The notes beneath the pieces are model-generated. The model did not search any database. It worked only from the letters and a program-made list of their open reading frames with translations, and had not been told where the DNA came from. Shown piece after piece: positions 4,487-44,659 of a DNA stretch of 64,000 bases. Position numbers and translations under genes: made by a program. Source of the DNA: Rhabdophis nuchalis (lineage: Eukaryota > Chordata > Lepidosauria > Squamata > Natricidae); assembly GCA_039707465.1 (NCBI GenBank), contig CM077648.1, forward strand, positions 70,017,619 through 70,081,618, in the 5' to 3' direction. How positions within the stretch are numbered: position 1 is the first letter of the stretch; each line of letters opens with the position of its first letter.

Positions 4487-4510
4487 CAGGGCAGGTTTTT
4501 GGCTTTGTTG

Positions 4511-4521
4511 ATTCTCAGCTT
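4511..4521 (-). promoter_or_regulatory. Self-complementary primer-binding site of element A
   Basis: The 11 nt reads AAGCTGAGAAT on the minus strand, two bases inside the 5' LTR. The same 11-mer occurs on the plus strand within both A LTRs (212-222, 4628-4638), so the transcript's own sequence can pair with the site. The match ends after exactly 11 nt. It does not begin with the TGG typical of tRNA-primed sites. Confidence 0.85.
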
Positions 4522-4523
4522 AA

Positions 4524-4888
4524 TGTCAGGCCTGTTTCTTCGTTGACTCAGGAAAGATCACACTTAGACATTATTTTGAAATGTTAAGACTACTTTTACT
4601 AAGTTACGAGAGCGTACAGACCAAGTAAAGCTGAGAATGAATAGTTTAGGCGCGAACAGAAAGTATTAAGCTTAAGCCCATCCCAATCCCCAAACCCCCC
4701 CTGTGCATTGTCCAATATGCAGCCATCTCCAACATCAGGTGGGCAGGTCTTCACCATCCTGGAATGCAGGTCCATTAGCAGGAGATAACACGAAACATCA
4801 ACATTGTCCACCAGCAGAACACATTCACCCCAAACCCCCCACCCTCCCCGTTTCCATGGCAGCGAAGCCAGAAATAGCGAGACTGACA
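4524..4888 (-). repeat. 5' LTR of element A
   Basis: 365 bp, same TGTCAG...CTGACA ends as the copy at 108-472. In element orientation the U3 carries a TTAATAC-like AT-rich box about 35 nt before the predicted transcript start, then GCGCCTAAA, 6 nt, and the 11-nt priming segment (4628-4638 on the plus strand). Confidence 0.94.
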
Positions 4889-5302
4889 GCTGTCCAAATG
4901 TTTAGTAGAGACGAATACTCTATCACCAACTTTGTAAGCCGGAGGAGCCGCTCGCTTTTTATCAGCATATAACTTATGTGATTGATGTGCATCATCCAAA
5001 GTTTTCTTTATGACAGGCCACACCGAAGACAATTTAGTGGACCAATCAGCTAGGGAGGGAATAGCAGGCGACTCGTGAGGCAACTCGGGTATGGGCACAA
5101 AGTCCTGACCATAGATGATTTTAAAAGGGGTCATATTTGTACTTGAATGAACAGAGTTATTATAAGCCACTTCGGCATGTATCAGAAGGTCAGCCCAGTC
5201 GTCCTGCTGAAAATTTATGAAACAACGTAGGTATTGTTCTAAAACAGAATTGGCCCTCTCACAAGCACCGTTCGTCTGCGGATGGTAGGAGGAGCTTAAG
5301 CC
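4889..5302 (-). pseudogene. Element B integrase C-terminal region, downstream of a nonsense codon
   Basis: Continues the B integrase after the stop near 5303: YNNSVHSSTNMTPFKIIYGQ, then KLYADKKRAAPPAYKVGDRVFVSTK, up to the A insertion point. A's equivalent codons read AQSLSSAYHPQTNG without the stop. Past the junction the same frame runs a short way into the A LTR (to 4775), making a meaningless chimeric tail. Confidence 0.85.
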
Positions 5303-8300
5303 CTAGGAGGAGCCTATCAACTTTAAAAATTCCTTCCAAAATTTCGAAGTAAATTGAGTACCTCTATCTGAAATGATACGCTTAGGAACCCCGTGGAAAC
5401 GATAAATATGATTCAGGAACAACTTAGCCAATGATTTGGAAGACGGAATTTTGGAACAAGGTACAAAGTGGACTTGCTTGGAGAAAAGATCTGTAACCAC
5501 CCAAATGACAGTATAATCCTGGCTGCTTGGAAGATCAACAATAAAGTCCATCGAAATTTCCTTCCAAGGAGCCTCCGGCTTCGCCACAGATTGGAGGAGG
5601 CCCTGCGGTTTTCCTGGTGAACGTTTCGAAGCCGCACAAATAGGACAACTAGCGATATAGGACTCAACGTCTCTCTTGAGGGAAGGCCACCAAAACTGGC
5701 GTTTAACCAGATGTATAGTCTTAACGAATCCGAAGTGTCCGGCCAATCGTGAGTCGTGTGCCCGTTGCAACACAAAAGGCCGTATGGTGGCAGGGACATA
5801 AATTTTCGAACCAATCCAAGGTAGATCATCCCTGACAGTGCAGTCACTGGAATGTGCAGAATACCATTCATCAGTAAGTAGTTCTGACTTAATCTTAGCA
5901 ATCAGTTCAACGGGTGGGTCAGCTTGGACAGCGGACTGACCCTTGGTCGAAACAGGAGAGGCCATCAGTGTAAGAGGCATCACTGGTTGCACAACTGTAA
6001 GTTTCAAAACGTCATATTGAGATAGTCTTGAGAGTGCATCAGCCATGAAATTTTTTCCTCCAGGAATATATTTGAGACTGAAGTTGAAACGATTGAAGTA
6101 ATGTGCCCAACGTAGTTGTTTAGGGGACAATTTACGGGATGAAGTGAGAGCTTCCAGGTTCTTATGGTCCGTCCAAACCTCAAATGGATGAGGGGCTCCT
6201 TCAATGAAATGACGCCAAGTCATGAGTGCCCAACGGACAGCAAATGCTTCCTTCTCCCAAATAGCCCATCTGCGTTCGGTGTTGGACAATTTACGAGAGG
6301 TGTAAGCACATGGTTGCAGCTGGCCCTGTTGGTTGAACTGCAGTAGGACAGCACCCACGGCGACATCGCTGGCATCAGCCTGAAGAACGAACGGGGAGCC
6401 GATGTCAGGATGCTTTAGGACAGGCTCAGCCGCAAACAAACGTTTAAGCTTCTCAAAAGCGGCTTGGCATTCCATGGTCCAGTTCAGAGGAGCTCCCGGT
6501 CGAGGTTTGCCCTCACCCTTCGTTTTGAGCAGATTTGTGATGGGTAACGCAATGCTAGCGAACGATGGAATAAATTGGCGGTAAAAGTTGGCAAAACCCA
6601 AAAAACTTTGCAGTTGTTTACGAGTGCGGGGGGGCGCCCACTCCATGACAGCCTTTACCTTTGCAGGATTCATTTCGATCCCCTCCGACGAAATGCGATA
6701 GCCTAAGTAATCAATCTTCTCTTGGTGAAATTCACATTTTGACAACTTAGCATAAAGTTCAGCAGCACGTAGTTTTTGTAACACGGAACGGACAAGTTTA
6801 ATATGTTCTTCACGTGTTTGCGTGTACACGACTATGTCATCAAGATAAACGATCACCCCTTTATACAGGTGGTCGTGGAGAACTTCATTGATCAGTTGCA
6901 TAAAAACAGAAGGAGCCCCCTGAAGACCAAAAGGTAGAACTTTAAACTGGAAACACCCTAGTGGGCAGTTGAAAGCTGTTTTCCATTCGTCACCCTCTTT
7001 AATTCTTACTCTATAGTAAGCTTCCCTTAAATCAAGCTTAGTAAAAAATTTGCCCGTAGCTAGATGAGCTAGCATGTCTTTCATAAGTGGGAGAGGGTAG
7101 ACATTGTGCTCGCAAATGGCATTCAGATAAGAGTAGTTTTGAACCAAACGGAGGGTGCCATCCTTCTTTTCTCTAAACATCACCGGTGCAGCCACACGTG
7201 GCCTGGCAGGCTCAATGAAGCCTCGGTTTAGATTCTTATCAATGAATTTACGCAACTCATCCATTTCACGTGGTGTCATAGAGTAAAGGCGAGGTTTAGG
7301 TAGTATTACACCTGGGAGAAAATCGATCGAGCAATCAGTGGCCCGATGAGGAGGGAGAGAATCACAAGACCTTTCGCTAAAAGTGTCTTTAAGATCCCAG
7401 TATTCTTTAGGAATCTTGTCTTCCCCAGGAATGGTTTCACTTGTAGGGAGGGCTAAAGTGGAACCTGCAGGCTCCTTAATTGGAGTTAGATCAAGGGGCG
7501 TCCCATCATCGTGATTTGTGATTGCAGAGATATGTTCAGGTTGTAACAAAGGGATTCGCACCCATCCTTCCTTCCAGTTAATTAGGGGATTCCATTTACG
7601 TAGCCAGTTAACCCCTAAGATAACAGCATTATCCGCAATAGGTGCCACAATAAAATTAATGGTTTCATTATGAGTATCACCAATAGAAAGCTGAAGGGGT
7701 TCAGTAATATAAGATGCGGGAGTTCCCCCTGCTACAGAGCCATCCATTTGGCAGAATGCGATTGGTACCTTTAAATTTTTTAAGTGGAAACGCATGGTCT
7801 GAACAAGTTCCTGACTGATTAGACAACGGGAACAGCCTGAGTCAATTAGAGCTTGTACACTGCAATTACGGCCGTTAGATGGAGCCAAAAGCCTTAAAGG
7901 AACATAAAGGGGCCCAGAGCGGGGACTTACCCAATTTTCGTCAGAGGAGGTGGAGTCCCCCTCCAAATCGTCGGGCTGTGGATTACGTTGATCACCAGAG
8001 AGGTCCAGCGGCTCCATTCCACTCATTGCTGGCTTACTGCGCACGCTCGGAGTTTTAGTAGGTTTTCTAGCTTCAGTAGAAGAATGTGGGCGTGGTGACC
8101 GTTTTGATCTGCAATTGTTAGCCCAGTGCCCCTCCTTCCCACAGCGAAAACAACTGCCAGGACGTGCTGAAGTTGATCTACGTCCTCCCATTTGCTTGTG
8201 GGAATCTCTATCTGTGGCTTGGGGCCTGGGGCTCTCAAAAGGCTTCATTTTTTCAAAATGAGCTGGAGTATGGGAGTGGGCCTGATCCAGCTCCACATCC

Positions 8301-8497
8301 CCGGCCAGCAGAAACCAATCATTTAAGGTATCAGGACGATATCTATTCACGCATGTTTGATAAATATCTTTGTTCAGCCCTTCTGTATAAACATCCATTA
8401 ACGCTCTGTCACTCCACCCTACCATATAAACAGAAAGTTCTTGAAAAATCTGTGTGTATTCCTGCACAGACATATCCCCCTGGCGCAGGTCTCTCAT
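5303..8497 (-). CDS. Element B gag C-terminus-protease-RT-RNase H-integrase frame
   Basis: A 1064-codon frame. It opens within gag (QGDMSVQEYTQIFQELSVYM) and passes through a CCHC zinc knuckle, CFRCGKEGHWANNC, near residues 117-130. Next come the protease with ALIDSGCSRC near 213-222, RT with LDLREAYY and the catalytic box YLDD, RNase H with QADASDVAVGAVL, and the integrase zinc finger and catalytic core, ending at a nonsense codon just after SDRGTQFTSKFWKEF. Gag and pol are continuous in one frame, as in Tf1/sushi elements that make a single polyprotein. The first ATG is probably not the true start: the gag continues upstream at 8494-9256 in shifted frames. Confidence 0.9.
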   Translation of the reverse strand: MRDLRQGDMSVQEYTQIFQELSVYMVGWSDRALMDVYTEGLNKDIYQTCVNRYRPDTLNDWFLLAGDVELDQAHSHTPAHFEKMKPFESPRPQATDRDSHKQMGGRRSTSARPGSCFRCGKEGHWANNCRSKRSPRPHSSTEARKPTKTPSVRSKPAMSGMEPLDLSGDQRNPQPDDLEGDSTSSDENWVSPRSGPLYVPLRLLAPSNGRNCSVQALIDSGCSRCLISQELVQTMRFHLKNLKVPIAFCQMDGSVAGGTPASYITEPLQLSIGDTHNETINFIVAPIADNAVILGVNWLRKWNPLINWKEGWVRIPLLQPEHISAITNHDDGTPLDLTPIKEPAGSTLALPTSETIPGEDKIPKEYWDLKDTFSERSCDSLPPHRATDCSIDFLPGVILPKPRLYSMTPREMDELRKFIDKNLNRGFIEPARPRVAAPVMFREKKDGTLRLVQNYSYLNAICEHNVYPLPLMKDMLAHLATGKFFTKLDLREAYYRVRIKEGDEWKTAFNCPLGCFQFKVLPFGLQGAPSVFMQLINEVLHDHLYKGVIVYLDDIVVYTQTREEHIKLVRSVLQKLRAAELYAKLSKCEFHQEKIDYLGYRISSEGIEMNPAKVKAVMEWAPPRTRKQLQSFLGFANFYRQFIPSFASIALPITNLLKTKGEGKPRPGAPLNWTMECQAAFEKLKRLFAAEPVLKHPDIGSPFVLQADASDVAVGAVLLQFNQQGQLQPCAYTSRKLSNTERRWAIWEKEAFAVRWALMTWRHFIEGAPHPFEVWTDHKNLEALTSSRKLSPKQLRWAHYFNRFNFSLKYIPGGKNFMADALSRLSQYDVLKLTVVQPVMPLTLMASPVSTKGQSAVQADPPVELIAKIKSELLTDEWYSAHSSDCTVRDDLPWIGSKIYVPATIRPFVLQRAHDSRLAGHFGFVKTIHLVKRQFWWPSLKRDVESYIASCPICAASKRSPGKPQGLLQSVAKPEAPWKEISMDFIVDLPSSQDYTVIWVVTDLFSKQVHFVPCSKIPSSKSLAKLFLNHIYRFHGVPKRIISDRGTQFTSKFWKEFLKLIGSS

Positions 8498-9256
8498 CCT
8501 GATTCTAGCTTTTCTCTCATTCGGGGGTCTTCAAAACGTCTCCTAAGAGCAGTCATAAAATTTTCAAAGTCCCGCAACAAGGGTGAGTGACTATTATGCA
8601 GAGAAACCAGCCATCTGGCAGCCTTGTTTTCCAGAGCCAAGGAGACAATCCTAATCTTAACATCGTCTTCAAAATCATCTGCATACTGTTTAACAAAATT
8701 ACTAACATGAAGCAGAAAAAGTCCTAAGTCATCAGGATTACCATCAAACTTAATGCCCAAGGGAGGGAGTTTAGCAGGTCGGCGAGGGGTTGGGGGGCGA
8801 ATTCCTCCCTGTGAATCTCTTTGGGTTTGTGCAGGAGGGGGAGGGGTTGTTTCTCTGGTTTCTTGGGCAGCAGCTGTTGCTGTTTCTTTTAACTGTTCGC
8901 TTTCCAGAAAGTGCCCTCCTCCCCAGATTTTATCCAGGGTTTCCCTCTTGTCGGATGCCTGACGAAGTAAGTCATCGGCCATCTGCCTCAATTCCTTTTC
9001 TTCCCTTAGGAGTTCTGATATGGATGGGGGTGGGGGGGCGGCGGCGTCTGGTGGTGGTAACCCCCGAGCCTATGTCTCCTGTCATCCCCACCCCTTCTGA
9101 CCAGCGATGCGGTTTAGATGATTCTTCGGCCTTCGGGTCTAAATTTAGGCTTGCTAAAAAGTCCAGTACTGACCTCGAATCATCCTTTGCTGCGATATTG
9201 GATGCGGCCTCTCCCATGCTCGGGCCCGGCAACTCCTCTTTGGCAGATTCCGACAT
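8494..9256 (-). pseudogene. Element B gag N-terminal and capsid part, frameshifted
   Basis: Two overlapping frames, 8972-9256 and 8494-8991, together make a gag start. The first begins MSESAKEELPG and carries KPHRWSEGVGM. The second has a charged helix (MRQMADDLLRQASDKRE), LPPLGIKFDGNPDDLGLFLL and FMTALRRRFEDP, typical of a gypsy capsid-like domain. A shift near 8975-9000 and another near 8500 break it from the zinc knuckle and pol. Conserved order and residues show these were one gag. Confidence 0.82.
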
Positions 9257-9275
9257 CAGGTTGTGATTTGTAGTG

Positions 9276-9286
9276 ACTTCCTGCTT
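9276..9286 (-). promoter_or_regulatory. Self-complementary primer-binding site of element B
   Basis: On the minus strand the 11 nt AAGCAGGAAGT lies two bases inside the 5' LTR. The identical 11-mer is on the plus strand within the B LTR at 9395-9405, then 6 nt, then TTTAGGCGC at 9412-9420. The sequence differs from A's site but still matches its own LTR. Confidence 0.83.
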
Positions 9287-9288
9287 AA

Positions 9289-9694
9289 TGTCAGGGCCCC
9301 TTTCTTCGAATACTCAAGAAAGACCACACTTACGCATTGTTTGGAATGTATAAGGCTACTTTTACTGAATACAGAAGATCAAGGGACCATGGTGAAGCAG
9401 GAAGTAACTAGTTTAGGCGCGAAGAATGATTATTAAAGCTTAAGCCCACCCCAATAGCCCTAACCCCCCCCCCCAGCAGTGTCCAATGCACTTTCGTCTC
9501 CGACATCAGGTGGGCAGTTCGTCCAACACCATCATCAGCATGGAATGTGAGACCGTTAAGCCACAGATAACACCGGCCGGTAACATCTTCCACCAATCTT
9601 CCACCAGCTCACAGAATTAACCCCTATAGCCCCACCCTCCCCGTTTCCATGGCAGCCAAGCAGCATAGGGAGAAACGAAGAGCGAAGGCTGACA
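9289..9694 (-). repeat. 5' LTR of element B
   Basis: 406 bp from TGTCAG to CTGACA. Blocks shared with the A and C LTRs include the TTTCTTCG/CTCAAGAAAG region, TTTAGGCGC, and the CCCCGTTTCCATGGCAGC stretch; the rest has diverged. The bases beyond it, CTACA, would be the target duplication, but the partner is outside the window. Confidence 0.88.
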
Positions 9695-9699
9695 CTACA

Positions 9700-11250
9700 C
9701 TTGGAGATCACCAGGAGATTCACGAAATAATATAGTAAGGAACCAAACTGACTATTTTACAATAAACAAAAGATTTAGAAACTCAGTAAAATCAGCGAAG
9801 ACATACCCAGGCACAGATGTACCATCCGATCATAATCTACTACTTGCCGAAGTCCAGCTGAAACTAAAAAAGACGAAAAACCTGAATCCTCCTAAACCAA
9901 GAATTGACAGTGACTTCATCATTAAACATGGAGATAAGATCAAAGAAGAACTAGAAATGCATTTAAGAGAAACCAACAACCTAAATAATGAAGATGTAGA
10001 AGTTAATTGGAATAAATTTAAAAATGCAATAGTAGAGGTAACAAACTTAAAACAAAGATAGAGGTACTACAAGAAACAGTGTATGATGGATGAAATTCTT
10101 CATCTCATGGATAAAAGACACTCTTATAAAAATAAAAACAAAGAAAAGTACAATGAATTGCAGAAAACAATTAGAAGAAAAATTTGACTGGCAAAAGAAG
10201 TTTGCAAAGAGATGCAAAGAAATAGAAGAGACATAATATATTCATGATCATTTCAACTTACACAAAAAAGTGAAAGAAGCAGCAGGTATCTACAAAAAAG
10301 AAAACTAACAACTTAGTTGACAAGGAGGGGGAAATCATTTTGGATGGGGATGTTAAACTAAAAAGATGGAATAAATATATTGAAGACTTTTTGAGGACCC
10401 TAGGGATGATATTGATATAGGAAGTATAACAACTAGACATCACTATGGAGGAGGTTGAACACACAATAAAAATAGCAAAAACAGGAAAAGCCACAGGATC
10501 TGATGATATCCCAGTAGAAATTTTAAAATTGCTGGAAGACAATGGGAAGAAATTTTACTGCAGCTCTTCAATCAAATATATGAAACAGGAAAGATACCAA
10601 ATAATTGCTAAAGTCAACCTTTGTGACAATCCCCCCCAAAAGTAAATGCAAAGAAGTGTAATGAATACAGAACAATAAGCTTAATGAGTCATGCTTAACA
10701 CCTCAAAAACCAAGAGCATGGTCATCAGCAAATAACACATTAATTTCCCACTGATAAATTCAGAAGGAATACCACTAGAAAAAGTTGAAAGTTGAAACTG
10801 TACCTTGGTTTTAATTTGCATGAAAGCTGGGATATGATCAGAGAAGTAAAGACAAGGATAGAGAAAGCTTGAACAGCATTTTTCAAAATGAAAAAGGTAT
10901 TCTGCAGTCACGACATAAGCCTAAGTCTGAAAATCAGGCTTGTCAGATGTTACATCTTTTCTATACTGTTTTATGGAGTAGAGAGTTGGTCTCTGAAAGA
11001 AAACCACTTGAAGAAACTAGAAGCATTTGAAATGTGGATTTACAGACGGCTGTTACATATGCTTAATAAATGGGTTAACAAAATCACAAAAGAGGAGGTG
11101 ATAAGCTGCCTGGGAAAGGAAAGGGAAATCATCAAAGCCCTTAAAAAGCGAAAGTTAGAATACTTTGGACATGTGATGTGATACCCAAAAAAATACGGCA
11201 TCCTTCACTTAATCCTCCAGGGAAAGACTGAAGGCAAATGAGGTCCAGGA
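9700..11250 (+). pseudogene. Decayed non-LTR retrotransposon fragment (endonuclease end, RT pieces, C-terminus)
   Basis: Plus-strand frames broken by shifts and stops read as LINE protein: PSDHNLLLAEVQLKLKK (endonuclease end), a lysine-rich linker, VEHTIKIAKTGKATGSDDIPVEILK (start of RT), and after a large gap LKIRLVRCYIFSILFYGVESWSLK...LEAFEMWIYRRLL...LKKRKLEYFGHVM (C-terminal region). These patterns fit an RTE- or Vingi-like LINE; the exact clade is uncertain. The central RT, including the catalytic box, is missing, and 10680-10860 may be foreign or scrambled. Confidence 0.6.
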
Positions 11251-11354
11251 AGAAGAAGAATATCATGGCTTCAAAACCTAAAGGACTCATGCAGCTGTTG
11301 ACAAAAATAGGATTGCCAATATGATTGCCAATGTCTGATGACGGATTTGAAAGA

Positions 11355-11515
11355 AAATATTGGTCACCACATTACAAAAAACATGTTGAGACTTTGGAAA
11401 AAAAGCAAAGAAGAGTAACTACCGTAAGATGATTAAAGGCGTGGAGACCAAACATATGAAGAATGGTTGCAGTTTTGGGGTTTGGCTAGCCTAGAGCAAA
11501 GAAAGAACCTAGGCA
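11355..11515 (+). pseudogene. CR1 LINE fragment
   Basis: Plus-strand pieces read like the CR1 C-terminal region: LEKKQRRV-T...MIKGVETKTYEEWLQ...GLASLEQRK in broken frames, similar to the minus-strand CR1 at 24380-25200. Too short and decayed for more. Confidence 0.5.
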
Positions 11516-11615
11516 CATGATAGCAGTAGCACTTAGCACTTAGACTTATATACCACTTCACAGTGCTTTACAGCCCTCTTTAAGTGGTTTACAAAGCCAG
11601 CATATTGCTCCCAAC

Positions 11616-12681
11616 CAGTGGTGAGATTCAGATAATTTAACGGTTCGCCCAGGATCAGGTTGGCCATTGTGGAAGGTGTGGCCCATCCCTATCCTCCAAG
11701 CCTCCTGTGACAGCCAACCTGAAAATTAACACCCCCACCCCCCACTATCAAAGTGGATCCTGGGTGCTTGGTTGCCCGTTTCTCCATTGCATTACAGTGC
11801 TACACCATGTAGCTTGACCCATCTACCACCACCCAGATGCCTTTGCTTCCTCTAAGAAAGGTGGTCAAAGAAAGAGGATTCCATCATGTGCTGAATGCCA
11901 TAATTAAACCATGGCTTCCTAAGATGATACTCTGTTACTGGATAAAGCAAGGAGGGTAACTCAAGGCAGCAAGCACCTGCAGCCCCAACGAAGTGAAAGA
12001 AGAAATGTCCACCCACATCTCTTTTCCACCCCGAACAGTGTGATTCTCCTAAAGGTCTCTGGTTTGATGCGCCCACCCGCTCTGCCTCTTTTGGTGGTGC
12101 CCCTTCCATGCCTGCATTCAGGGAGGGAGAAAGCGATGGAAGAGGCAGCCATCTTGGCCTCCTTCATCAGGGTTGTGTGTGTGCATGTGGGGAGGGAGGT
12201 AGGAAAGCCAAGACTGGGGTAAGGAAGTGACTCACTCCTTTGCGGAGGTGGTGCCTTCACTCCCCCAGAGTGGAAGAGGGGGGGGCATGGGGTTGTCAGC
12301 ATCTTTCCTCCGTGGCATCTCAAACCCCTGGAGGATGACAGGGTGACTCCCAGCCTGCATAGTGGAATGTGGCACAGGGTGAGCCCAGAGAGAGGGGGGG
12401 AATGAATGGATGACTGGCCACATGGCCACTGTTGGCTTCCAGCGCCAGAGAGGGAAGTAGCCGGGTTACCGCTGCCTTTCATTGGGGCATTTGGAGCAAG
12501 ATGAGACTCCACTTGCTGTCTCTCCCCCCCCCCCCCCCTGGCATGGCAGGGCTTCCTGCTTCTCACTTAGCTACATGCAATTTGGGGGTGGCAGGTGGGG
12601 AGGATTAAGCTGGTTCACCAAACTCAACAAAAAATTACCAGTACCACTGAACCGGCGTGAACTGGCTGAATCCCACCACTG
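11616..12681. mobile_element. Non-autonomous hAT-type DNA transposon
   Basis: The ends are 16-bp terminal inverted repeats differing at one base: CAGTGGTGAGATTCAG at 11616-11631 and the complement of CAGTGGTGGGATTCAG at 12666-12681. They are flanked by an 8-bp target duplication with one mismatch, CTCCCAAC (11608-11615) and CACCCAAC (12682-12689). An 8-bp duplication and CAGTG ends fit the hAT superfamily. The 1066-bp interior is GC-rich with no recognisable transposase. The split host repeat reads TTACAAAGCCAGCATATTG before it and AACAATCTGGGTCCTCAT after. Confidence 0.75.
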
Positions 12682-12699
12682 CACCCAACAATCTGGGTC

Positions 12700-13005
12700 C
12701 TCATGATAGCAATATTGCAGTATTTGAGAGGTTGCTGCAAAGAGGAGGGGGTCAACTTATTTTCCAGAGCACCAGAAGGTAAGAGAAAAATTAATGGATG
12801 GAAACTAATCAATGAGAGATGCAACCTGGAATTAAGAAGAAACAGTGAGGACAATGAACCAGTGGAACAGTTTGTCGTCAGAAGTTGTAGGTGCTTTACA
12901 CTGAAGGTTTTTTTTTAAAAAGACTGGACAATCACTTGTCTGAAATGGCATAGGCTTGAACAGGGGATTGAACTCCAAGATCCCTTCCAGCTCTATTCTG
13001 ATTGA
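12700..13005 (+). pseudogene. CR1 LINE 3' end
   Basis: Plus-strand codons read ILQYLRGCCKEEGVNLFSRAPEGK, then VEQFVVRSC, then LDNHLSEM, followed by the CR1 terminal motif CCAAGATCCCTTCCAGCTCTATTCTG up to about 13000. This is the last stretch of CR1 ORF2 with its short 3' UTR. Confidence 0.7.
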
Positions 13006-14285: not shown

Positions 14286-14295
14286 TTAACAAGAT

Positions 14296-14890
14296 ATTAT
14301 GGAAATGGAAAAGGTGCAGAAGAGGGCAACCAGAATGATTAGGGGGCTGGAACACCTTCCTTACCATCTGAGGCTGCAACGGCTGGGCCTCTTCACTCTA
14401 GAACGACGGCACCTGAAAGGTGACCTGATTGAAGTCTATAAAATCATGCACGGTGTGGACAAAGTCAAAAAGGAAAAACTGTTTTCGCAAAACACTAAAA
14501 CTAGGGGGCACTCCATGAAACTTTTGATAGCTAAACCTCAAACAAATAAGAGGAAGTACTTTTTCACCCAGAGGATCACTGGTCTATGGAACTCCCTGCC
14601 AGAAGAAGTGGTGACAGCTGTAAGCCTCGACACCTTTAAGAAAGGATTAGATGAGTTCATGGAGAACAAGGGTATCAATGGCTATCATTATGGATGTCTA
14701 AGGACACTCTCCGGGATGGAGAGATAGGCAGGATATTCCTCAATGCCATTTGCAGGGAATCATAAGCAGGTGAAGACATCTGCTTGGGAATACCCTGAAG
14801 CAAATGGTGAGCCACTGTGTGAGACAGAATGCTGGACCGGATGGGCTGTGGCCTGTTCCAGCAAGGCTGTTCTTACGTTCTTAAGATTTA
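14296..14890 (+). pseudogene. CR1 LINE C-terminus and 3' UTR
   Basis: The 142-codon frame (14299-14727) reads EKVQKRATRMIRGLEHLPYHLRLQRLG and WNSLPEEVVTA, typical of the C-terminal region after RT in CR1 LINEs. The 3' UTR that follows (GCTGGACCGGATGGGCTGTGGCCTG...AGCAAGGCTGTTCTTACGTTCTTAAG) is the characteristic CR1 terminus. The 5' part is missing, as in most CR1 copies. Confidence 0.85.
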
Positions 14891-25200: not shown

Positions 25201-25204
25201 GAGC

Positions 25205-25690: not shown

Positions 25691-25860
25691 AGTAGTTGTG
25701 GTCTACTTTGTTGAATGCCTTACTCAAACCTAAGTATACTATGTTCGCAGCATTTAGGTGATTTACTAATTTAGTCACTTTATCCAAGAATGAAATAAGA
25801 TTGGAGAAGCTGAATAACATATCCACAAGCATTAACACCAATAATAGGCAAAATGTAACT
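25691..25860 (-). pseudogene. CR1 RT fragment
   Basis: The minus-strand frame reads LNAANIVYLGLSKAFNKVDHNYCF, matching the CR1 RT palm motif (VYLDFSKAFDKVDH). It probably belongs to the same CR1 as 24380-25200, separated by the inverted-repeat insertion. Confidence 0.6.
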
Positions 25861-27229: not shown

Positions 27230-28159
27230 TAGTGCCTTATGAAAGTGATACTGAATTCCCCCTGTCAGAGGGTCCCAATGGACCTAAGCTATGCTGGAGG
27301 GGTGGTGAAGAAAACAGGAGACCCCCATAGATCACAAGGAGATCACTAACACTTTGTTTGGTTCGGGGGAAGCTCTCAATCCTGCAGGAAGGAAAACACA
27401 ACCATTGTGCGCTGTCCAAGACTCTGGCAGCCTAAACAGTGAAGAATGAGGGAAGACTGAAGAAGAACAGTGTGATGGCTGGGTGAGAATTTTCTAACTT
27501 ACGTCAAATATGCACCTTTCAAAATTGGCCGAGTGACAGTGGAAGGGGATGGATTTGCTTATCTCCCACCCCCTGAGAACAGCAGCGAACAAGCACAAAG
27601 CCGAAATAGATCTGAATAAGAAATTTGAATTGTTTGAAAAATTTGAAGATATAAATGCTAAAAGAGGAAAATCAGACTAGTTAACCTAAAGATTATAAAA
27701 CTAAAGTTTTTGTTTGAAACTGTTTGAAACTATAAAACATGGGCTCTGGAACGTTTAAAAGGAAAAAATGGCATTGGTTAAGGAAGTTAAAGGAGAGGAA
27801 TAGAAGAGAAATAGAGCAACAGTGATTCCTACTGGTGACCAAAAATCCACAGCAAAGTGATGAACGTGAAGAAAAAAAAGTGTGATTTAAATTTGACCTA
27901 AGCAGCTTATTGGAAAAAAACATTGTTATAAGACTTAGATAAACTGCCTGCACCTGGGAATATTTACAGAGAGAACTACAGAGAAAGAGTGGAATTAGTG
28001 TAAGCTTTAAATTCTGTAGCTCCCTGATTAAATCATAACAACTGAGCAACTGAAACTGGGAAATAACAGACGTTGCTTAAAAAATAAATTGAGATTTTTA
28101 TATTTCAGCTTTTAGTGGTCTTCCTTGGCGATTTATAAATTGTTGGATATAATTCTGGG
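27230..28159 (+). mobile_element. Probable L1 5' UTR, continued after element D at about 38555
   Basis: Purine-rich, non-coding sequence (GAAGAATGAGGGAAGACTG, AAGCCGAAATAGATCTG) lying upstream of element D. The L1 5' UTR and ORF1 resume after D. Similar words flank D: TTGTTGGATATAATT on the left (about 28139-28153) and TTTGTGGATTATAAT on the right (38536-38550, repeated at 38559-38573), consistent with an imperfect duplication. The left boundary is a guess. Confidence 0.45.
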
Positions 28160-30655
28160 GTTTTGGTGAGTGAAAATTTCGGTTCTGGTTGCAAAGATGG
28201 AGGAGCCGAGCTGAGTTACGCGGAGAGGGGAGTGCCTACCTTGAGATGCCCTGAGGGATGCCGCCGTCGACAAATGGTCACTGGTTCTGGCGGTGGTGTG
28301 TTTGTTTAGCTAGGGAGCGGCTTGACATCCCGGCTGCATGGCCGTCGTCCCCGTTGCCGCCACTTCCGCCCTAGCCTTTCTTCTTCTTCGTCCATTTCGT
28401 TGATCCGCTTCATTCGTCATTCTCCGTTGTCGCCCATGTCTTCCGTCCTGCTGTTTGACGCACTATCTTCTGCCGCTTCCCTCGCCTGTGTTCGTCAGCT
28501 GTCTGTCACCTGCTCTGCTCCTGGTCTCCTTGCCTCATTGCCCACGCCCTCCGTTTCGTGCTCGGCATTTCCCATGCCTGCTTCGTCCATCGTTGTCGTC
28601 GCCTTTCGTTTCACTTGATTTGTGCTTCATCGCCTGGTGTCTACCTGCTCTTTCCTCACTCGTCGTTCGATATTTGCTTGATTTCGCCCTATCCTGCTGC
28701 CTAATGCTGTTTGTCGTCTTCTCGTCTTGCCGCTCAGCACGTCGCCTGTTTGTTTTTTGTTTTTCAAGCTGCCGGCCCTCCATTTTTGTCTCAACGTTTT
28801 TCAGCGTCTTTCAACGTTTCTCCTGCTCGTCCCTTATTTGGTCTTCTCGCAGGTATGTTACTGATTTCTTGCCCCGTCGCCTCTCCTCTTATGGTTTTCA
28901 TCGTGCCAGTCGCCCCTCAGTCGGCTGCCTGCCATCCATCCTGCTGTGGCCTGCTATGTCGCACCCTATACGTCGTTGGTTTGCCTGCTGCTGTCGTAGC
29001 TGTCTCCGCTATCAGCAAATGTCACCCTTTGCATCAACGCCACTGCCATCTTTGCCATCAGCGGTGGCTGTCGCCCTGGCGGAGGTGGGCTCTATACAAC
29101 CCTCCGCTTGGGGCCTACATTGGGTGATGCAGACCTGCACTATTATAGACCTTAGTGCCTCGGCTTTGTGAAGATCTAGGGGCCTGGCATGGCAGATACA
29201 AGACCTTAGTAATTTGGCTCCAGGGCCTGCCAGTTTGGTGTTTATAGGCCTGGTTCGAGCCAACCGTGACGTATTGACATTTCATCCATGGGCTGTGTTA
29301 CTCTTTACCAGGACGGCACTCTCTCCATGACCATCTACCTCTACAGACTATGTACTCTGCAGCGGACCTCCTCGCCCTCTCTCGCAGATTTGGCCCTCTA
29401 CGCTAACGAGGGCCCACCTCGATGATGGAATTTTAAATCCTGAGAGGTGGCGCAAATGGTAAATCAGGAATTTTGGGGGGAAATTTTTAACGTGTTTTTA
29501 AAGGGGCCCCAGGGTGGGTGTAGGGTTACCTAGGATTAGGAATTTGGTTGAGGGGAGGGACCCACGGGACTTTAATTCTAGGCTGGCCCATGGTCCCAAC
29601 TGGGAAGAAGTTAGGTCCAATATTGGGGGGAGAGTAAAGGTCAGTTCTACAGAGGGTCATACCATCAGGACAGTGTGTGGGAGAGGTAGGTATGGCATGA
29701 GCCAGGGACCATACCAGGTTACGGGAGGGCGCACCCGCTGTTTGCTAGTTGTTGCGCCCTCCAGTCCCCAGGGCTCCTCTCGCATTCCAGGGGGTTCGGG
29801 GCCACAGGGCCCGGGTCCCAGGCTGATGCTATGTAACGCCAGGTCCGTGACCAACAAAGCCCCCCTCATCCATGATTTGGTATTGGAGGGGGAGCCGGAA
29901 CTGGTAGGAATTACGGAGACCTGGTTGGGCCATGAGAGGGGAGTACCCCTCGTGGAAATGTGCCCACCAGGTTACCGGGCATTCCATCACCACGGGCCCG
30001 GGGTCGGGGTGGGGGTGGTGGCGGTTATTATAAGGGATTTTCTTGATCCAAGGGAGACCGCAGTGCCGCAAACAGCTGGCTGTGAGTCCCTGTGTGTGAA
30101 ATGGGGCCCTGGGAGGCAGTTGGGCATACTGATTCTGTACCTGGCTCCCCGCTGCGTATCAGCTGCCCTGCCTGAGCTCCTTGATGTGATAGCTGAGGTG
30201 GCGGTTGTTTCCCCCAGGCTACTAGTCATGGGGGATTTCAACCTGCCATCGATAGGCGAGACATCTGAGGTGGCCTGGGAGTTCATGGCTTCCATGATAG
30301 CCATGGACCTGACCCAATTAGTTCACGACCCCACTCACACCGGTGGACACACGCTAGACGTAGTTTTTGTCTCCGGCCAGTGGACAAATGATCTTGGATT
30401 AGGGGAATTAGTCATCACACCCCTGTCATGGACAGATCATTCTCTCCTTCAGCTCGACTTCCCAACTGCTACACCCCACCGCGGGGAGGCAGAACCAGAC
30501 ATAACGAGATGGTTCCGCCCCAGGTGCCTGATGGACCCTGAGAGGTTCCAGACAGAGCTTGGGCCAATACCTGAGACCCTGACCCGTGACTCGACTGAGG
30601 ACCTAGTGGCCGCCTGAAATAATGCGGCCACGGGGGCCCTGGATCAGGTCGTACC
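28160..30655 (+). mobile_element. Element D: L2-like LINE, 5' UTR and endonuclease half
   Basis: Plus-strand LINE with a pyrimidine-rich 5' region (28160-29513) followed by the endonuclease frame. It is split after 30655 by gypsy element C, whose insertion duplicated GTACC (30651-30655 and 36358-36362). Removing C joins the sequence to 36358 in the same order as intact copy F. Long frames in the 5' region are low-complexity and unconvincing. Confidence 0.82.
29514..30617 (+). CDS. Element D APE-type endonuclease domain of an L2-like LINE
   Basis: A 367-codon frame whose endonuclease starts near residue 103. Motifs in order: LMLCNARSVTNKAPLI (N), VGITETWLG (E), a poorly kept central region, VMGDFNLPS (D/N), THTGGHTLDVVFV, and LSWTDHSLLQ (terminal D-H pair). 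It continues TPHRGEAEP...RFRPRCLMDPERFQ, then a stop after LVAA; in copy G the frame reads on as LVAAWYSAATGALD. This nicks target DNA in apurinic-endonuclease LINEs. The first 100 residues are not conserved-looking, so the true start may be further in. The protein cannot be complete because RT is displaced by element C. Confidence 0.82.
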   Translation: MGVGLPRIRNLVEGRDPRDFNSRLAHGPNWEEVRSNIGGRVKVSSTEGHTIRTVCGRGRYGMSQGPYQVTGGRTRCLLVVAPSSPQGSSRIPGGSGPQGPGPRLMLCNARSVTNKAPLIHDLVLEGEPELVGITETWLGHERGVPLVEMCPPGYRAFHHHGPGVGVGVVAVIIRDFLDPRETAVPQTAGCESLCVKWGPGRQLGILILYLAPRCVSAALPELLDVIAEVAVVSPRLLVMGDFNLPSIGETSEVAWEFMASMIAMDLTQLVHDPTHTGGHTLDVVFVSGQWTNDLGLGELVITPLSWTDHSLLQLDFPTATPHRGEAEPDITRWFRPRCLMDPERFQTELGPIPETLTRDSTEDLVAA

Positions 30656-31036
30656 TGTCAGGCCTGCTTCTTCCATTACTCAAGAAAGACCACACTTCAA
30701 ACACATTGTAAATGTTTAGGGTTACTTTTACTGAATAAGAAAGGACAGCAGCGAAAGTTAAGCAAGGAATGAGTAATTTAGGTGCAAAGAATACATATCA
30801 AAGTATAAGCCAACCCCAATAACCCATGACCCCCACAGTAGTGTCCAATGCAATATCGTCCACGATGTCAGATGGGTAGCACGTCCACAGCGGTCATCAG
30901 AATGGAATGCGATACCGTTGGGCCTGGCGATATCATCCCCTAGCTCCATCTTCCTCCAGCACACATAGCACACACACAGCCCCCACCCTCCCTGTTTCAA
31001 TGGCAGCCAAAGCAGGCAATAAAGCGAAGGCTGACA
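30656..31036 (-). repeat. 3' LTR of element C
   Basis: 381 bp, TGTCAG...CTGACA. The priming 11-mer AAGCAAGGAAT is at 30760-30770, followed after 6 nt by TTTAGGTGC (TTTAGGCGC in the 5' LTR, a CpG-type change). A purine-rich tract lies just inside at about 31037-31052. Confidence 0.92.
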
Positions 31037-31133
31037 TCCGGCCCTCCTCCAAAAGAAAAGAATTCAGTCCTGCAAAACAGACGGAAAAGATAGGAATATA
31101 CAACAACATACACATAAAGTGAAACGGTAGAGA

Positions 31134-31504
31134 TTAAGGCTTGTTAGGGTATTTAGCATAAAACTGCCTCAGTAATTTCGGGCCCCTAACGTGACGTTTG
31201 TCCACCCATTCAGTATGGGATGGAGGAAAGTCCTTCCAAGCAATAAGATACTGTACTCTGTTTCTATGCATGTACTCTCTACTCTGGTGGGAGAACCAGA
31301 GTGTGGTTGGCGAAGGTGTGATAAGCGTTCCGGTTTTAGCAAGTGGACATGGAAAATTGGGTAAAGATGTTGGTAGGTTTTTGGTAGGTCCAATTTAACT
31401 GAAACAGAGCTGATAATCTTAATGATCGTAAAAGGGCCAACAAATTTAGGACCTAGCTTCTTGCATTTCTGAGGGCTCTCCAAAAATCTAGTGAAAACGT
31501 ACAC
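31134..31504 (-). pseudogene. Element C integrase tail and chromodomain, frameshifted
   Basis: The minus strand reads [31 protein letters not shown] and YPIFHVHLLKPERLSHLR, then shifts frame. The chromodomain resumes in another frame: RNRVQYLIAWKDFPPSHTEWV and FYAKYPNKP, with the stop at 31134-31136. The chromodomain binds modified histone tails in chromoviruses and may steer integration; here it is disconnected. Confidence 0.82.
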
Positions 31505-31591
31505 CCGATCACCAACTTTGTACTGGGGGAGTACTGCTCATTTCTTATCAGCATAAAACTTATGCGACTGGTGAGCATCATCCAATGTCTT

Positions 31592-32632
31592 TCATATAAT
31601 GGGCCAAACAGTTGATAGTTTACTACTCCAATCCGAGAGCGAAAGAATGGTGGGAGTGTCGTGAGGGAGCTCGGGTATTGGTACAAAGTCCTGGCCAAAA
31701 ATTACCTTAAACGGGGTCATGCCAGTACTACTATGAACTGAGTTGTTGTACGCTACCTCAGCATGAATTAAGAGGTCAGCCCAGTCATCCTGCTGGTAAT
31801 TTATAAAACAACGCAAATACTGTTCCAGAACCGAATTGGCCCTCTCACAAGATCCGTTAGTCTGCGGGTGGTGGGAGGAGCTTAAGTCTTGGGCGGAGCC
31901 AATCAATTTCAAAAATTCCTTCCAAAATTGCGAAGTAAATTGAACCCCTCTATCCGAGATGATACGTTTCGGGACGCCATGTGAGCGATAAATATGAGTC
32001 AGAAACAGCTTTGCCAAAGCCTTAGCCAATGGGATCTTCGAGCATGGTACAAAATGAACTTGTTTGGAGAACAAATCAGTAACCACCAATATAACGGCAA
32101 AACCTTGGCTACTTGGAAGGTCAACAATAAAGTCCATAGATATTTCCTTCCAGGGAGCCTCCGGCCGCACTACCGATTGGAGGAGACGGTGAGGTTTTCC
32201 AGGAGAACGCTTCGAAGCAGCACAAACTGGACAACTTGCAATATAGGATTCAATGTCTTTCTTTAGTGAAGGCCACCAAAACTGACGTTTAACCAAGTGC
32301 ATAGTCTTTACGAACCCAAAATGTCCAGCTAGTCTGGAATCATGAGCTCTTTGCAAAACGAATGGTCGAAGTGTCGCGGGGACATAAATTTTAGAGCCAA
32401 CCCAAGGTATGTCATCTCTCAAAGTGCAATCTCCAGAGTGTGCAGCAAACCATTCATCAGTGAGAAGTTCCGTTTTAATTCTAGATATCAATTCCGGTGG
32501 GGGCTCCGCTTGTAGAATCGAGTGGCTTCTAGTTACGACTGGAGCCGCCATGCTATATAGTGGAACCACAGGTTGAATGACCGTGAGCTTAGAGCTGTTA
32601 TATTGAGGAAGCCGGGATAAGGCATCAGCCAT
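31592..32632 (-). pseudogene. Element C integrase frame
   Basis: 346 codons open: the end of RNase H (MADALSRLPQY), the zinc finger with HDSRLAGHFGFVKT and CPVCAASKR, and the catalytic core with ISMDFIVDLPSSQG, SDRGVQFTSQFWKEF and HPQTNGSCERANSVLEQYLR, so the D, D, E triad is in place. It ends where a shift separates it from the chromodomain part, and a break at 32632-32675 separates it from RNase H/RT. Confidence 0.85.
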
Positions 32633-32674
32633 AAAGTTCTTTCCTCCTGGAATGTATTTAAGAGTAAAGTTAAA

Positions 32675-33838
32675 TCAACTGAAGTATTGAGACCAGCGAA
32701 CTTGCTTTGGGGAAAGCTTGCGAGGCATTCTTAAAGATTCAAAATTCTTGTGATCAGTCCATACTTCAAACGGGTGAGTGGCACCCTCCAGAAAATCACG
32801 CCAAGTCATCAGCGCCCAACGAACAGCAAATGCCTCCTTTTCCCAAATAGCCCATCTCCTTTCGGTGTCGGATAACTTACAAGAGGTGTAAGCGCATGGC
32901 TGTAAATGTCCATCTAGGTTGTATTGTAATAGGACAGCGCCTACAGCTACATCACTGGCATCTGCTTGGACCACGAATGGCGCATTAACATCTGGGTGTT
33001 TTAGAACCAGTTCTGCTGCAAATAGACATTTAAGTTTCTTGAATGCGTCTTGGCATTCCATAGTCCAGTTCAAGGGTTGTCGTGGTTGGTCCTCTCCTTT
33101 CATTTTCAGAAGGTTTGTGATAGGCAAAGCAATACTAGCAAAAGAAGGGATAAATTGGCGGTAAAAGTTGGCAAATCCCAAAAAACTTTGTAATTGTTTA
33201 TGGGTACGAAGGGGGGCCCATTCCGTTACAGCTTTCACTTTACCAGGATCCATCTCAATTCCCTCTGCCGAGATGCGATAGCCAAGATAGTTAATTTTAT
33301 CCTGGTGAAATTCACACTTAGAAAGCTTAGCGTAGAGTTCAGCGGCTCTCAGTTTGCGCAAGACAGAGCGGACTAGCTTCACGTGTTCTTCACGTGTTTC
33401 CATGTAAATAAGGATATCATCTTGATATACGATAATGCCCTTGTACAGGTGTTGATGTAGTACTTTGTTTATCAATTGCATAAAAACTGATGGCGCCCCC
33501 TGGAGGCCAAATGGTAACACTTTAAATTGAAAACACCCTAAAGGACAGTTGAATGCAGTCTTCCACTCATCCCCTTCTTTAATTCTTATCCTATAATAAG
33601 CTTCTCTAAGATCTAGCTTAGTGAAAAATTTTCCTGTAGCCAAATGCGCCAACATATCTTTCATGAGTGGGAGGGGGTAGACGTTTTCCGCGCAAATGGC
33701 ATTCAAGAACCTGTAGTCCACGACCAGACAAAGATTGCCATCTTTCTTTTCCCTAAACATTACAGGGGCCGCAACTCGTGGTCTAGCAGGTTCAATGAAA
33801 CCCCTCTCTAAGTTTTTGTCAATAAATTTATAGTTCAA
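32675..33838 (-). pseudogene. Element C RT-RNase H frame
   Basis: 387 codons open: FIDKNLERGFIEPARPRVAAPVMF, VVDYRFLNAICAENVYPLP, KLDLREAYYRIRIKEGDEWKT, FGLQGAPSVFMQL, and the catalytic box YQDD in IIVYQDDILIY, where A has YIDD and B has YLDD; both aspartates are kept. RNase H follows with VVQADASDVAVGAVLLQ and WTDHKN. Flanking shifts disconnect it from protease and integrase. Confidence 0.85.
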
Positions 33839-33900
33839 CCATTTCTCCTGGTGTCATGGAATAAATGCGAGGTTTGGGAAGTTGCACCCCTGGGAGGAAG

Positions 33901-34770
33901 TCAATGGAACAGTCCGTAGTACGGTTGGGGGGGCAGTGTGTCAGAGGATTTTTCGCTAAAAACATCTTTAAGGTCCCAATATTCCTTGGGAATTTTTTCC
34001 TCCCTCAGTATTATTTCCAACATGGGTACACTCTGACCAGTGTTTATGGCTTCTTGGAGTGGTTCTGGTTCCGTCTGGTTCTCCATGATTGGGGGTGGTG
34101 GCGGGGTTTGGGCCTCTGTACTGGGAGGCATAGGCAAAGGAATGCGAACCCAACCTTCTTTCCAGTTAATCATAGGGTTCCATTTGTGTAGCCATGTTAA
34201 GCCCAAAATAATCGGGTTTTCTGCAATAGGGGCTACAATAAAGTTAAGGAATTCCCGGTGGTGGTCGCCGATAAATACCTCAATAGGCTCTGTTACAAAA
34301 AGCGCTGGAGCACCACCTGCTATGGTACTATCCATTTGACAGAAAGCTATTGGAACTTTCAAAGTCTTAAGGTGAAGGCCCAGTTGCTGCACTAAGTCTT
34401 GGCTGATAAGACAGCATGAACAGCCAGAGTCTAAAAGGGCTAGCACTTCACAGTTGCAGCCACTAGAGGGGGCCGAAATATTTAAAGGGATGGTCATGGG
34501 GCCCGAACGAGAACTCACCCAAGGTCCGTAGTTGTCATCGACCGAGTCCGTGTCCTTCTCCCAGTCATCTGGCTCCTCCCTCTGCTGCTGACGGCAGGTA
34601 GTAAGATCCAGAGGTTCCACTCCGCTCATCGCCTGCTTTACGCGCATGCTCGGGTTTTTGGCGGTCTTTCTCATTTCGGATGATGACTGAGGTCGGGGCT
34701 TTGCTTTCATTTTGCAGTTATTTGCCCAATGCCCCTCCCTCCCGCATCAGAAGCAAGCGTTAGTGCGAGG
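33901..34770 (-). pseudogene. Element C zinc knuckle and protease
   Basis: The minus strand gives a CCHC knuckle reading CF-CGREGHWANNC, with a TGA stop in place of the third residue (about 34737-34760). Then comes MKAKPRPQSSSEM and a protease with LALLDSGCSCCLISQ, KVPIAFCQMDS, IAENPIILGLTWLHKWNPMINWKEGW. The protease active-site motif DSG is kept. A shift near 33905-33920 separates it from RT. Confidence 0.82.
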
Positions 34771-35895
34771 CTTGCCAGGCGTTCCTCCTTTTCTTTCATT
34801 TGGTCATCACGGCCAAAGGTGGGAGGGGGGGAATTTTTTTCTCTTTCTCTTTCAATCTCAAGGAGGCTTCTATTTCTAGCTAGGTCAATTTCTACATCAG
34901 CTGCAAGTTCAAACCAGTTCTCGAGAGTTTCAGGACTGCATCTGTTGACACAGCTTTGATATATAGTGAGATGCAAACCTTCAGTATAATTATCGATAAG
35001 GGCCTCCATGTTCCAACCTCTCATATATACAGCCAGCTCATGAAAATGCTGAGTATAGTCCTGCACTGGCCTGTTACCTTGGCATAAAGTTTTCATTTCA
35101 AGCCGTGCTTTTCTATGAAGGAGGGGGTCTTCGAACCGCCTTCTCAAGGCGGTCATAAATCTGTCGAAATCTCCCAATAAAGGAGAATTATCATTATGTA
35201 GTGAGACCATCCAATCGGCAGCTTTGCCCTCCAACGCCAGAGAAACAATTCTTATTTTAGACTCATCATCTGGCAAATCGAAAGCAGCCTGCTTTACAAA
35301 ATTGCTGACTTGCAGTAAAAAAAATCCCAGCTCTTTTGAGTTCCCTCCAAACTTAATTCCCAGGGGGGGAAGTTTTGACATTCTGCGTGCTGCGGGGCTC
35401 GGTTCTCTCCTTTGATCTGCTCCAGGAGCAATTTCCCTTGCCGTTTCAACATGCGGCGGGGGTCTCTCTCTTCGGGTAGTTTCCTTTTCCAGGGGGGGGT
35501 TTCCTCCTTTCTTTTCTGCTCCCCCAGTCCGAGGGGCTAGGATCCCTCCCGCACTTCCGTTCTCTGGCACACTTTTTCTCGTCCGCCTCTCGGATTAGTG
35601 CTCTTGCCTGTTCTCTTAAGTAATTGTCTTCCTCTACCTCTTCCCAAGGGGAGGGGGAGTGGGCTCGTCTGTGTCTGGTGGTTGTAACCCCTGGGGGAAT
35701 TTCTTCAGAGGCCCCCTTCATCCCCACTCCCTCGGACCAGTGATGACGAATTGGTTTTTCCTCGGGTTTCGGCCCCAGGCTAATATCGGCCAATAATTCC
35801 ATTACTGACCTTGTTTCTTCTTTGGTTTCTTTTTTCAGAGAGGTAGGGTCGGGCGCTGTAGCCCCCAGAGTTTCTTCTTTTCCGGGATCCGACAT
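34707..35895 (-). pseudogene. Element C gag, two overlapping frames
   Basis: 35446-35895 starts MSDPGKEETLG and carries HHWSEGVGMKG plus a charged helix (LREQARALIREADEKK). 34707-35570 continues in another frame with LPPLGIKFGGNSKELGFFLLQVSNFV, KIRIVSLALEGKAADWMVSL, FMTALRRRFEDPL and YTEGLHLTIYQSCVNR, a gypsy/sushi capsid-like core. One frameshift in the overlap breaks it. This whole core is absent in A. Confidence 0.85.
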
Positions 35896-35962
35896 TTGGC
35901 TTCGGATTTATTGTTTTATTACACTCACTACTGAAGTTGTTAGCTCAGAGCTGAGTGTGAAG

Positions 35963-35975
35963 TCATTCCTTGCTT
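35963..35975 (-). promoter_or_regulatory. Self-complementary primer-binding site of element C
   Basis: The minus strand reads AAGCAAGGAATGA, two bases inside the 5' LTR. The same 13-mer is on the plus strand in the 5' LTR at 36082-36094. The first 11 nt end 6 nt before TTTAGGCGC (36099-36107), the same spacing as in A and B. Confidence 0.84.
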
Positions 35976-35977
35976 TT

Positions 35978-36357
35978 TGTCAGGCCTGCTTCTTCCATTA
36001 CTCAAGAAAGACCACACTTCAAACACATTGTAAATGTTTAAGGTTACTTTTACTGAATAAGAAAGGACAGCAGCGAAAGTTAAGCAAGGAATGAGTAATT
36101 TAGGCGCAAAGAATACATATCAAAGCATAAGCCAACCCAATAACCCATGACCCCCACAGTAGTGTCCAATGCAATATCGTCCACAATGTCAGATGGGTAG
36201 CACGTCCACAGCGGTCATCAGAATGGAATGCGATACCATTGGGCCTGGCGATATCACCCCCTAGCTCCATCTTCCTCCAGCACACATAGCACACACACAG
36301 CCCCCACCCTCCCTGTTTCAATGGCAGCCGAAGCAGGCAATAAAGCGAAGGCTGACA
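35978..36357 (-). repeat. 5' LTR of element C
   Basis: 380 bp, TGTCAG...CTGACA, followed by GTACC, the right copy of the target duplication. In element orientation an AT-rich TTATACTTTGATATG box lies upstream of GCGCCTAAA and the predicted transcript start. Confidence 0.92.

Positions 36358-44412: not shown

Positions 44413-44659
<247 letters not shown>

Follow-up and report, generated by a model that had tools for sequence, protein, structure and literature searches.

We analyzed a window of 64,000 nucleotides (nt) from the snake Rhabdophis nuchalis (assembly GCA_039707465.1, contig CM077648.1, positions 70,017,619 to 70,081,618), in which three related Ty3/gypsy elements, here termed A, B, and C, lie on the minus strand and very probably prime their own reverse transcription. 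All positions given below are those of the window. Element A has a 5′ long terminal repeat (LTR) of 365 nt (4524–4888, TGTCAG...CTGACA) and a 3′ LTR (108–472) that is 99.7% identical to it. It is inserted inside element B and interrupts it. The 5′ LTR of B (9289–9694) comprises 406 nt, and its 3′ LTR lies outside the window. The 5′ LTR (35978–36357, 380 nt) and the 3′ LTR (30656–31036) of element C share 98.2% identity and have TG...CA ends, and the element is bordered on both sides by a perfect 5-bp target duplication, GGTAC. Between the elements, LTR identity is 64–72%. A blastn search of the window with the three LTRs returned these five LTRs (two of A, one of B, two of C) and no others.

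The pol open frame of A (588–4175, minus strand), scanned as three pieces, encodes protease (PR), reverse transcriptase (RT), RNase H, integrase (IN; H2C2 and rve), SH3_Tf2-1, and a chromodomain (Chromo); the last two count for an assignment to the Tf1/sushi type. Elements B and C have protease, RT, RNase H, and integrase in common. No chromodomain was found in the scanned pieces of B, which is split by A, and of C, which was scanned only through the integrase frame. The RT-RNase H of B and of A is 83% and 81% identical, respectively, to that of C. Gag and pol frames overlap in A (3899–4519 and 588–4175) and in C (34707–35594 and 33901–34746), in a −1 register according to coordinate arithmetic. 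Unlike in A and C, the capsid end, the zinc knuckle, the protease, and the RT share one frame in B (5303–8530). Among the best 120 of 4475 protein matches, the best-scoring relative came from a contig (71% identity over 97%) and the best-scoring organism-labelled one from the snake Pantherophis (77% over 84%), followed by two frogs (48% and 45%). Together with a relative from the snake Thamnophis (78% over 52%), the highest-identity organism-labelled proteins in this set were those of snakes.

Each primer-binding site matches the LTR of its own element

Three gypsy elements with primer sites of their own had been described in the initial annotation, and all four strings quoted there were located where they had been placed. 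The candidate primer-binding sites (A, 4511–4521; B, 9276–9286; C, 35965–35975; minus strand) begin exactly 2 nt past the CTGACA end of the 5′ LTR. As had been claimed, each of these 11-mers is repeated as its reverse complement in the LTR of the same element. There it marks the proposed self-primer, nt 1–11 of the RNA, at 4628–4638 in A (+1 at 4638), at 9395–9405 in B (+1 at 9405), and at 36082–36092 in C (+1 at 36092), all on the minus strand. In A, the reverse complement of AAGCTGAGAAT is found at 4511, with LTR copies at 212 (212–222, in the 3′ LTR) and 4628. For B, the reverse complement of AAGCAGGAAGT occurs at 9276, with an LTR copy at 9395; one further occurrence of this reverse complement, at 43554, is unrelated. 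For C, the reverse complement of AAGCAAGGAAT lies at 35965, with LTR copies at 36082 and 30760.

When each LTR was compared with the next 60 nt, the longest complement proved to be 11 nt long in A and B and 13 nt long in C, where the two additional matching bases lie upstream of +1. Other matches of at least 8 nt between the LTR and these first 60 nt were absent from A and B, and C had one further 8-mer. Nucleotide 12 of the RNA is unpaired with the base preceding the site in A, B, and C as well as in seven relatives described below (10 of 10). This mismatch is compatible with a duplex that would end at 11/12 and with an RNase H cut there.

The three 11-mers were correctly said to differ from each other, since they do so at 5 of 11 positions. 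With the LTR of its own element, a site agrees at 11 of 11 positions, compared to only 7 or 8 with the LTRs of the other two. Among the 11 pairs of this duplex (stem 1), five are changed on both sides, six are invariant, and none is broken, with all 33 cells being Watson-Crick and not one G-U or unpaired. Chance, at 4^-11 per place, falls far short of explaining why three diverged elements have an exact 11-nt match at one and the same place of their LTRs. These matches and paired changes are features of the sequence itself, as are the domains listed above.

The leader is predicted to fold into a rod

The RNA from +1 to the site is predicted to form a rod on the minus strand in A (4511–4638), B (9276–9405), and C (35965–36092), with the primer–site duplex as its basal stem. 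Unconstrained minimum-energy folds contained all 11 primer pairs in all three elements, and the z-scores were −4.72 (A), −7.25 (B), and −3.90 (C), with 0 of 200 dinucleotide shuffles as low in each case. With 40 nt of extra downstream sequence, B and C keep 11 of 11 primer pairs. RNAalifold gave −38.6 for the three-sequence alignment, compared to a column-shuffle mean of −7.5, and −21.5 compared to a mean of −5.7 when primer and site were removed (0 of 500 shuffles as low, each). Obtained on three related sequences, this result is suggestive rather than final.

A second stem is predicted next to the first one, pairing nt 17–23 (4622–4616) with nt 104–110 (4535–4529) in A, nt 18–25 (9388–9381) with nt 104–111 (9302–9295) in B, and nt 20–24 (36073–36069) with nt 103–107 (35990–35986) in C. 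Three of its eight aligned pairs are changed on both sides and four are broken in one element. In half-swap folds, the own partner beat the foreign partner in every row and column, and in the outer-duplex swap it was best in 3 of 3 rows and 2 of 3 columns. The predicted rod also encloses an invariant AGTAAAAGTA (4595–4600 and the equivalents in B and C), possibly an AGTAAA poly(A) signal, which the fold might mask in the 5′ copy.

Seven relatives share the layout

A first scan of genome contigs revealed no relatives. In a second scan, which used the broader RT alignment A2 (17 rows), 25 loci (L002–L026) filed under prokaryote metagenome-assembled genomes were found to encode a chromovirus-like RT with 35–48% identity over the best segment. 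These contigs are probably eukaryotic contamination. Seven of the 25 (L004, L006, L007, L008, L009, L019, and L024) show TGACA, 2 nt, and an 11-nt complement, all in pol orientation, a layout that is likewise read from the letters. Among the 128 perfect 11-nt pairs with a distance of 40–400 nt in the 25 relatives, counted on both strands and thus each twice, 7 follow GACA plus 2 nt, compared to an expectation of about 0.5 at a GACA background rate of 0.0037. When one mismatch was allowed, no additional TGACA-linked pair in pol orientation appeared. No direct repeats were found in the seven relatives, so that their LTRs are deduced from the TGACA end and the layout. Nor was a convincing tRNA-type site found in the other 18, which therefore do not form a contrast group.

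Taken together, the three window elements and these relatives have 8 distinct primers; each of the 11 pairs varies among them, and all are Watson-Crick. In unconstrained folds, six of the relatives formed 11 of 11 primer pairs, and L019 formed 10. We compared own with permuted partners in the ten elements and found 0 of 5000 permutations as good for stem 1 and 0 of 5000 for stem 2, compared to 1927 of 5000 for a control segment. With seven less redundant elements, the numbers out of 5040 were 1 (the identity) for stem 1, 7 for stem 2, 1515 for a third duplex, and 1236 for the control. In 5 of the 10 elements, the own partner was the best-ranking one for stem 2. The second duplex of the "pretzel" proposed for this group of elements (see below), in which the sequence just 5′ of the site pairs with the part of the LTR that follows the primer, is predicted in A, B, and C and not good in L004 and L019.

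Four of the relatives carry a 9-nt inverted copy of the primer in U3 just upstream of +1 (L006, 65–94; L007, 19–48; L024, 2718–2747; L008, 682–712), for which 0–3 of 5000 letter shuffles were as long, and in L008 this copy tracks the changed primer. A weaker one is present in L004 (~108–137; 346 of 5000), and none was found in A, B, C, L009, and L019. Such a copy might sequester the primer sequence in the 3′ LTR.

Protein scans of IMG/VR yielded no relatives, and a DNA-pattern scan of the same database gave a single match (L001) to 16 fixed bases, which by our estimate may be due to chance. Plasmid records contained three weak RT relatives with less than 34% identity. In an RT tree of 23 rows, comprising contig relatives and the snake elements (L019, L022, and L025 were dropped because of stops, and L024 and L026 were left out), the snake branch is long, and we made no use of its position.

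Start site, box, and TATA element

The initial annotation had assigned the setting of the transcription start to a conserved box, GCGCCTAAA, so that exactly 11 nt would be available. On the minus strand, the box lies at 4645–4653 in the 5′ LTR of A, at 9412–9420 in B, and at 36099–36107 in C, and the box string TTTAGGCGC was found at 229, 4645, 9412, and 36099. The box is intact in four of the five LTRs, and in these the spacing of 6 nt to the 11-mer held; in the 3′ LTR of C, the box has one change. The box given for A (229–237) exists but belongs to the 3′ LTR. The three LTRs have seven identical runs of at least 7 nt in common, among which GCGCCTAAA ranks third in length, and the box was not seen at the equivalent place in the seven relatives, which have the same +1 geometry. 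For these reasons, we dropped its proposed role as start-site setter.

The spacing of a TATA element may be an alternative setter of the start. With the first base of the primer as +1, TATAWAWR is fully matched (8/8) at −32 in L004, L006, L007, L008, and L024, and 7/8 at −34 in L009. In A, B, and C, only weak TATA-like stretches are present. The bases around +1 in these three elements fit YYANWYY, the consensus of the initiator.

Self-priming as the preferred explanation

The above results make a joint explanation well supported and, in our view, highly probable: each of the three elements represents a diverged subfamily of a Tf1/sushi-type chromovirus in a snake host, and all three self-prime. 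Their transcripts would begin with the first base of the LTR 11-mer, and the R-U5 leader would fold into a rod, in which the basal stem pairs the first 11 nt of the message with the site 2 nt after the LTR and the second stem pairs bases near the LTR end with nt ~16–25. By analogy with Tf1, an RNase H cut between nt 11 and 12 would release the 11-mer, which would then prime minus-strand DNA with no need for a tRNA. That transcripts begin with the 11-mer and that priming needs no tRNA had both been proposed beforehand; these proposals are supported by the own versus cross pairing, the unconstrained folds, and the second covarying stem. Further support comes from the lack of TGG, as needed for the CCA end of a tRNA, in the 13 nt that follow the LTR, both in all 3 window elements and in all 7 relatives. 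The layout shared by these relatives, six of which have TATA at −32 or −34, points the same way.

Several observations weigh against this explanation or narrow it. With 40 nt of extra downstream sequence, the best fold of A keeps 10 of 11 primer pairs. The inner R-U5 fold by itself, with a z-score of −4.43 in B, is modest in A (−2.19) and weak in C (−1.64), and 27 of 108 rod pair cells in the three elements are G-U or unpaired. In the outer-duplex swap, the 5′ part of A with the 3′ part of C reached −17.9, slightly better than C with itself (−17.7). The seven relatives were selected for a perfect complement after GACA plus 2 nt, so that their perfect pairing and spacing are not independent evidence, and no such site was found in the other 18 of the 25, the presence of a 5′ LTR in those 18 not being established. 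The inner R-U5 folds of the seven relatives (z-scores of −0.07 to −1.29) are not clearly better than shuffles; a long rod thus has support in A, B, and C and none in the relatives. For stem 2, the own partner ranks second in three elements (C, L009, and L024), and L004 (own partner ninth) and L019 (sixth) have no good second stem. A third "pretzel" duplex, 3′ of the site, is unsupported, as own partners were no better than permuted ones (1310 of 5000). Finally, L019 has no TATA match near −32, and the best matches in A, B, and C are 5/8 at −33, 6/8 at −32, and 6/8 at −27, respectively.

We weighed self-priming against three other explanations. Priming could depend on a host tRNA or tRNA fragment, with the 11-nt complementarity being incidental or serving packaging or dimerisation, and half-molecule tRNAs indeed serve some LTR elements (PMC6317226). 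However, the TGG is missing in all ten elements, and three sites would require three tRNA partners, yet each site exactly matches its own LTR. This makes tRNA priming highly improbable. In the window, ARAGORN (bacterial settings) detected no tRNA gene, and Rfam no family at gathering score. The paired 11-mers could instead be an inverted repeat, acting as DNA or as RNA, kept at the leader base as a stem for promoter function, termination, or RNA stability. The stem is indeed the base of the predicted rod, and the poly(A)-like AGTAAA inside the rod makes an occlusion in the 5′ copy thinkable. Against such a role stands the place of the site: in all ten elements it lies where priming occurs, 2 nt past the LTR end (in the seven relatives, this spacing was part of the selection), and both length and place equal those of Tf1 priming (PMC7175516). 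We therefore regard this alternative as very unlikely.

The match might also be the leftover of one ancestral repeat, or due to chance, and carry no functional information. The elements are related, as their RT-RNase H identities show, but with five double changes, no broken pair, and LTRs as divergent as reported above, the paired changes already contradict this explanation, which retains next to no probability. The claim that site and LTR changed together, beyond what plain shared ancestry would produce, thus stands.

Why primer and site may change together

The paired changes had been read as covariation. While the changes are indeed paired, two mutations and selection may not be required to account for them, because self-primed replication should itself copy the primer into the daughter site. 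In the standard scheme of reverse transcription, the freed primer becomes the 5′ end of the minus strand, which is the basis of this copying argument. According to the title of a 2006 report by Atwood-Moore, the self primer is reportedly not removed. Plus-strand synthesis would then copy the retained 11-mer, and the new site would be templated by the 5′ LTR 11-mer. The 11 nt absent from the template would be copied from the 3′ LTR 11-mer into both new LTRs. One mutation and one tolerated mismatch would in this way give rise to a fully paired new subfamily. Since the daughter site would be the complement of the message 5′ end, the LTR 11-mer and the site should drift as one unit. The primer-binding site could accordingly be a copy of the message 5′ end that is rewritten in each round, rather than an independently evolving sequence, and act as a subfamily-private lock and key; we propose this tentatively and put it at slightly below an even chance.

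The neighbouring stems, unlike stem 1, would have to covary by selection. Rewriting hence predicts a stem 1 with only Watson-Crick pairs beside looser stems, as seen in A, B, and C (33 of 33 versus 81 of 108 cells). G-U or broken cells number 0 of 33 in stem 1 and 27 of 108 in the other helices (Fisher p 0.0003). Across the ten elements, G-U accounts for 14 of 109 pairs in stem 2 and 0 of 110 in stem 1, a comparison biased by the choice of relatives with perfect matches. The same pattern would be expected if selection strongly favoured a perfect RNase H substrate, so that rewriting stays a reading of these data. The copying argument offers a way to separate selection from the replication cycle as the cause of paired change.

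Further features of the elements and the window

The target duplication could be compared in A and C, as the 3′ end of B lies beyond the window. That of A is imperfect, with ACAGC (4889–4893) before the 5′ LTR and TTAGC (103–107) after the 3′ LTR. The TT of the latter equals the two bases between the LTR of A and its primer site, as if an unprocessed DNA end took the place of two duplicated bases. Compared with B (7401–9288), the gag region of A (3401–4523) is missing about 0.85 kb, and the missing stretch corresponds to the part of B that holds the capsid and zinc-knuckle matches. As the LTRs of A are 99.7% identical despite this loss, A appears to have transposed recently, using Gag provided in trans.

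Element C sits in a long interspersed nuclear element (LINE), since its flanks (29502–30665 and 36361–38328) match adjacent parts of the LINE at 50724–51106. The best matches of a LINE in the window are from snakes and lizards (Pituophis, 83% over 28%; Salvator, 67% over 77%; best 120 of 7315). Additionally, a near-perfect palindrome is located at 44413–44659, with two 123-nt arms that are 98% complementary and separated by a 1-nt spacer.

Comparison with known systems

The mechanism of self-priming itself is not new. In Tf1 of fission yeast, which the initial annotation had rightly cited as priming with its first 11 nt, a duplex forms between the site and the first 11 bases of the RNA, and RNase H cleaves the RNA between nt 11 and 12 (PMC7175516). 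Self-priming is described as common in the Tf1/sushi group, with a three-duplex "pretzel" for which Butler et al. 2001 is credited among others; the earlier statement that it had been predicted for vertebrate sushi elements agrees with this credit to work of 2001 (PMC10085805). The same source reports that the −1 register of Gag and Pol predominates outside the fission yeasts. Self-priming has also been predicted for most plant elements of the Tcn1 clade (PMC6317226), and inferred for Tj1, and the range over which it has been implicated extends from fungi to vertebrates (PMC4600332). One spikemoss Tcn1 element was reported without the self-priming layout, and a 5-bp target duplication was reported in a Tcn1 element (PMC2864245). 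In the extracts of the literature searched, we met no squamate case and no explicit covariation test; Butler et al. 2001 may contain the latter. According to these sources, self-priming is demonstrated in yeast Tf1, whereas elsewhere, including vertebrates, it is inferred or implicated. A vertebrate window that holds three subfamilies, with every primer change compensated and with A being young as judged from its LTRs, offers candidates for a direct test.

Like Tf1 and Tf2 of Schizosaccharomyces pombe, A, B, and C have a chromovirus pol and an RNA whose first 11 nt would be complementary to a site after the 5′ LTR, and they share the duplex that joins site-adjacent sequence with the LTR downstream of the primer (PMC7175516, PMC10085805). 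They differ in host and primer sequence and in the longer nested rod predicted through R-U5. The third duplex of Tf1 is unsupported here, and the cleavage reported for Tf1 would occur in A, B, and C by analogy. Tj1, Tosmo1-3, Tcry1, and the Tcn1-clade elements, which we liken by description only, have the same inferred self-priming layout in fission yeast, Cryptococcus, and moss hosts. The vertebrate sushi elements, such as sushi-ichi of Takifugu, belong to the same group by domains and layout, and both self-priming and the "pretzel" were proposed for them (PMC10085805, PMC6317226); A, B, and C differ from them in their squamate host and in presenting three subfamilies side by side with paired changes at 5 of 11 positions. 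Overall, A, B, and C are a real and well-supported case of a known kind, and they are of value as a compact vertebrate example in which the primers are compensated, one copy is young, and the leaders share a predicted fold, together with an account of joint change that can be tested.

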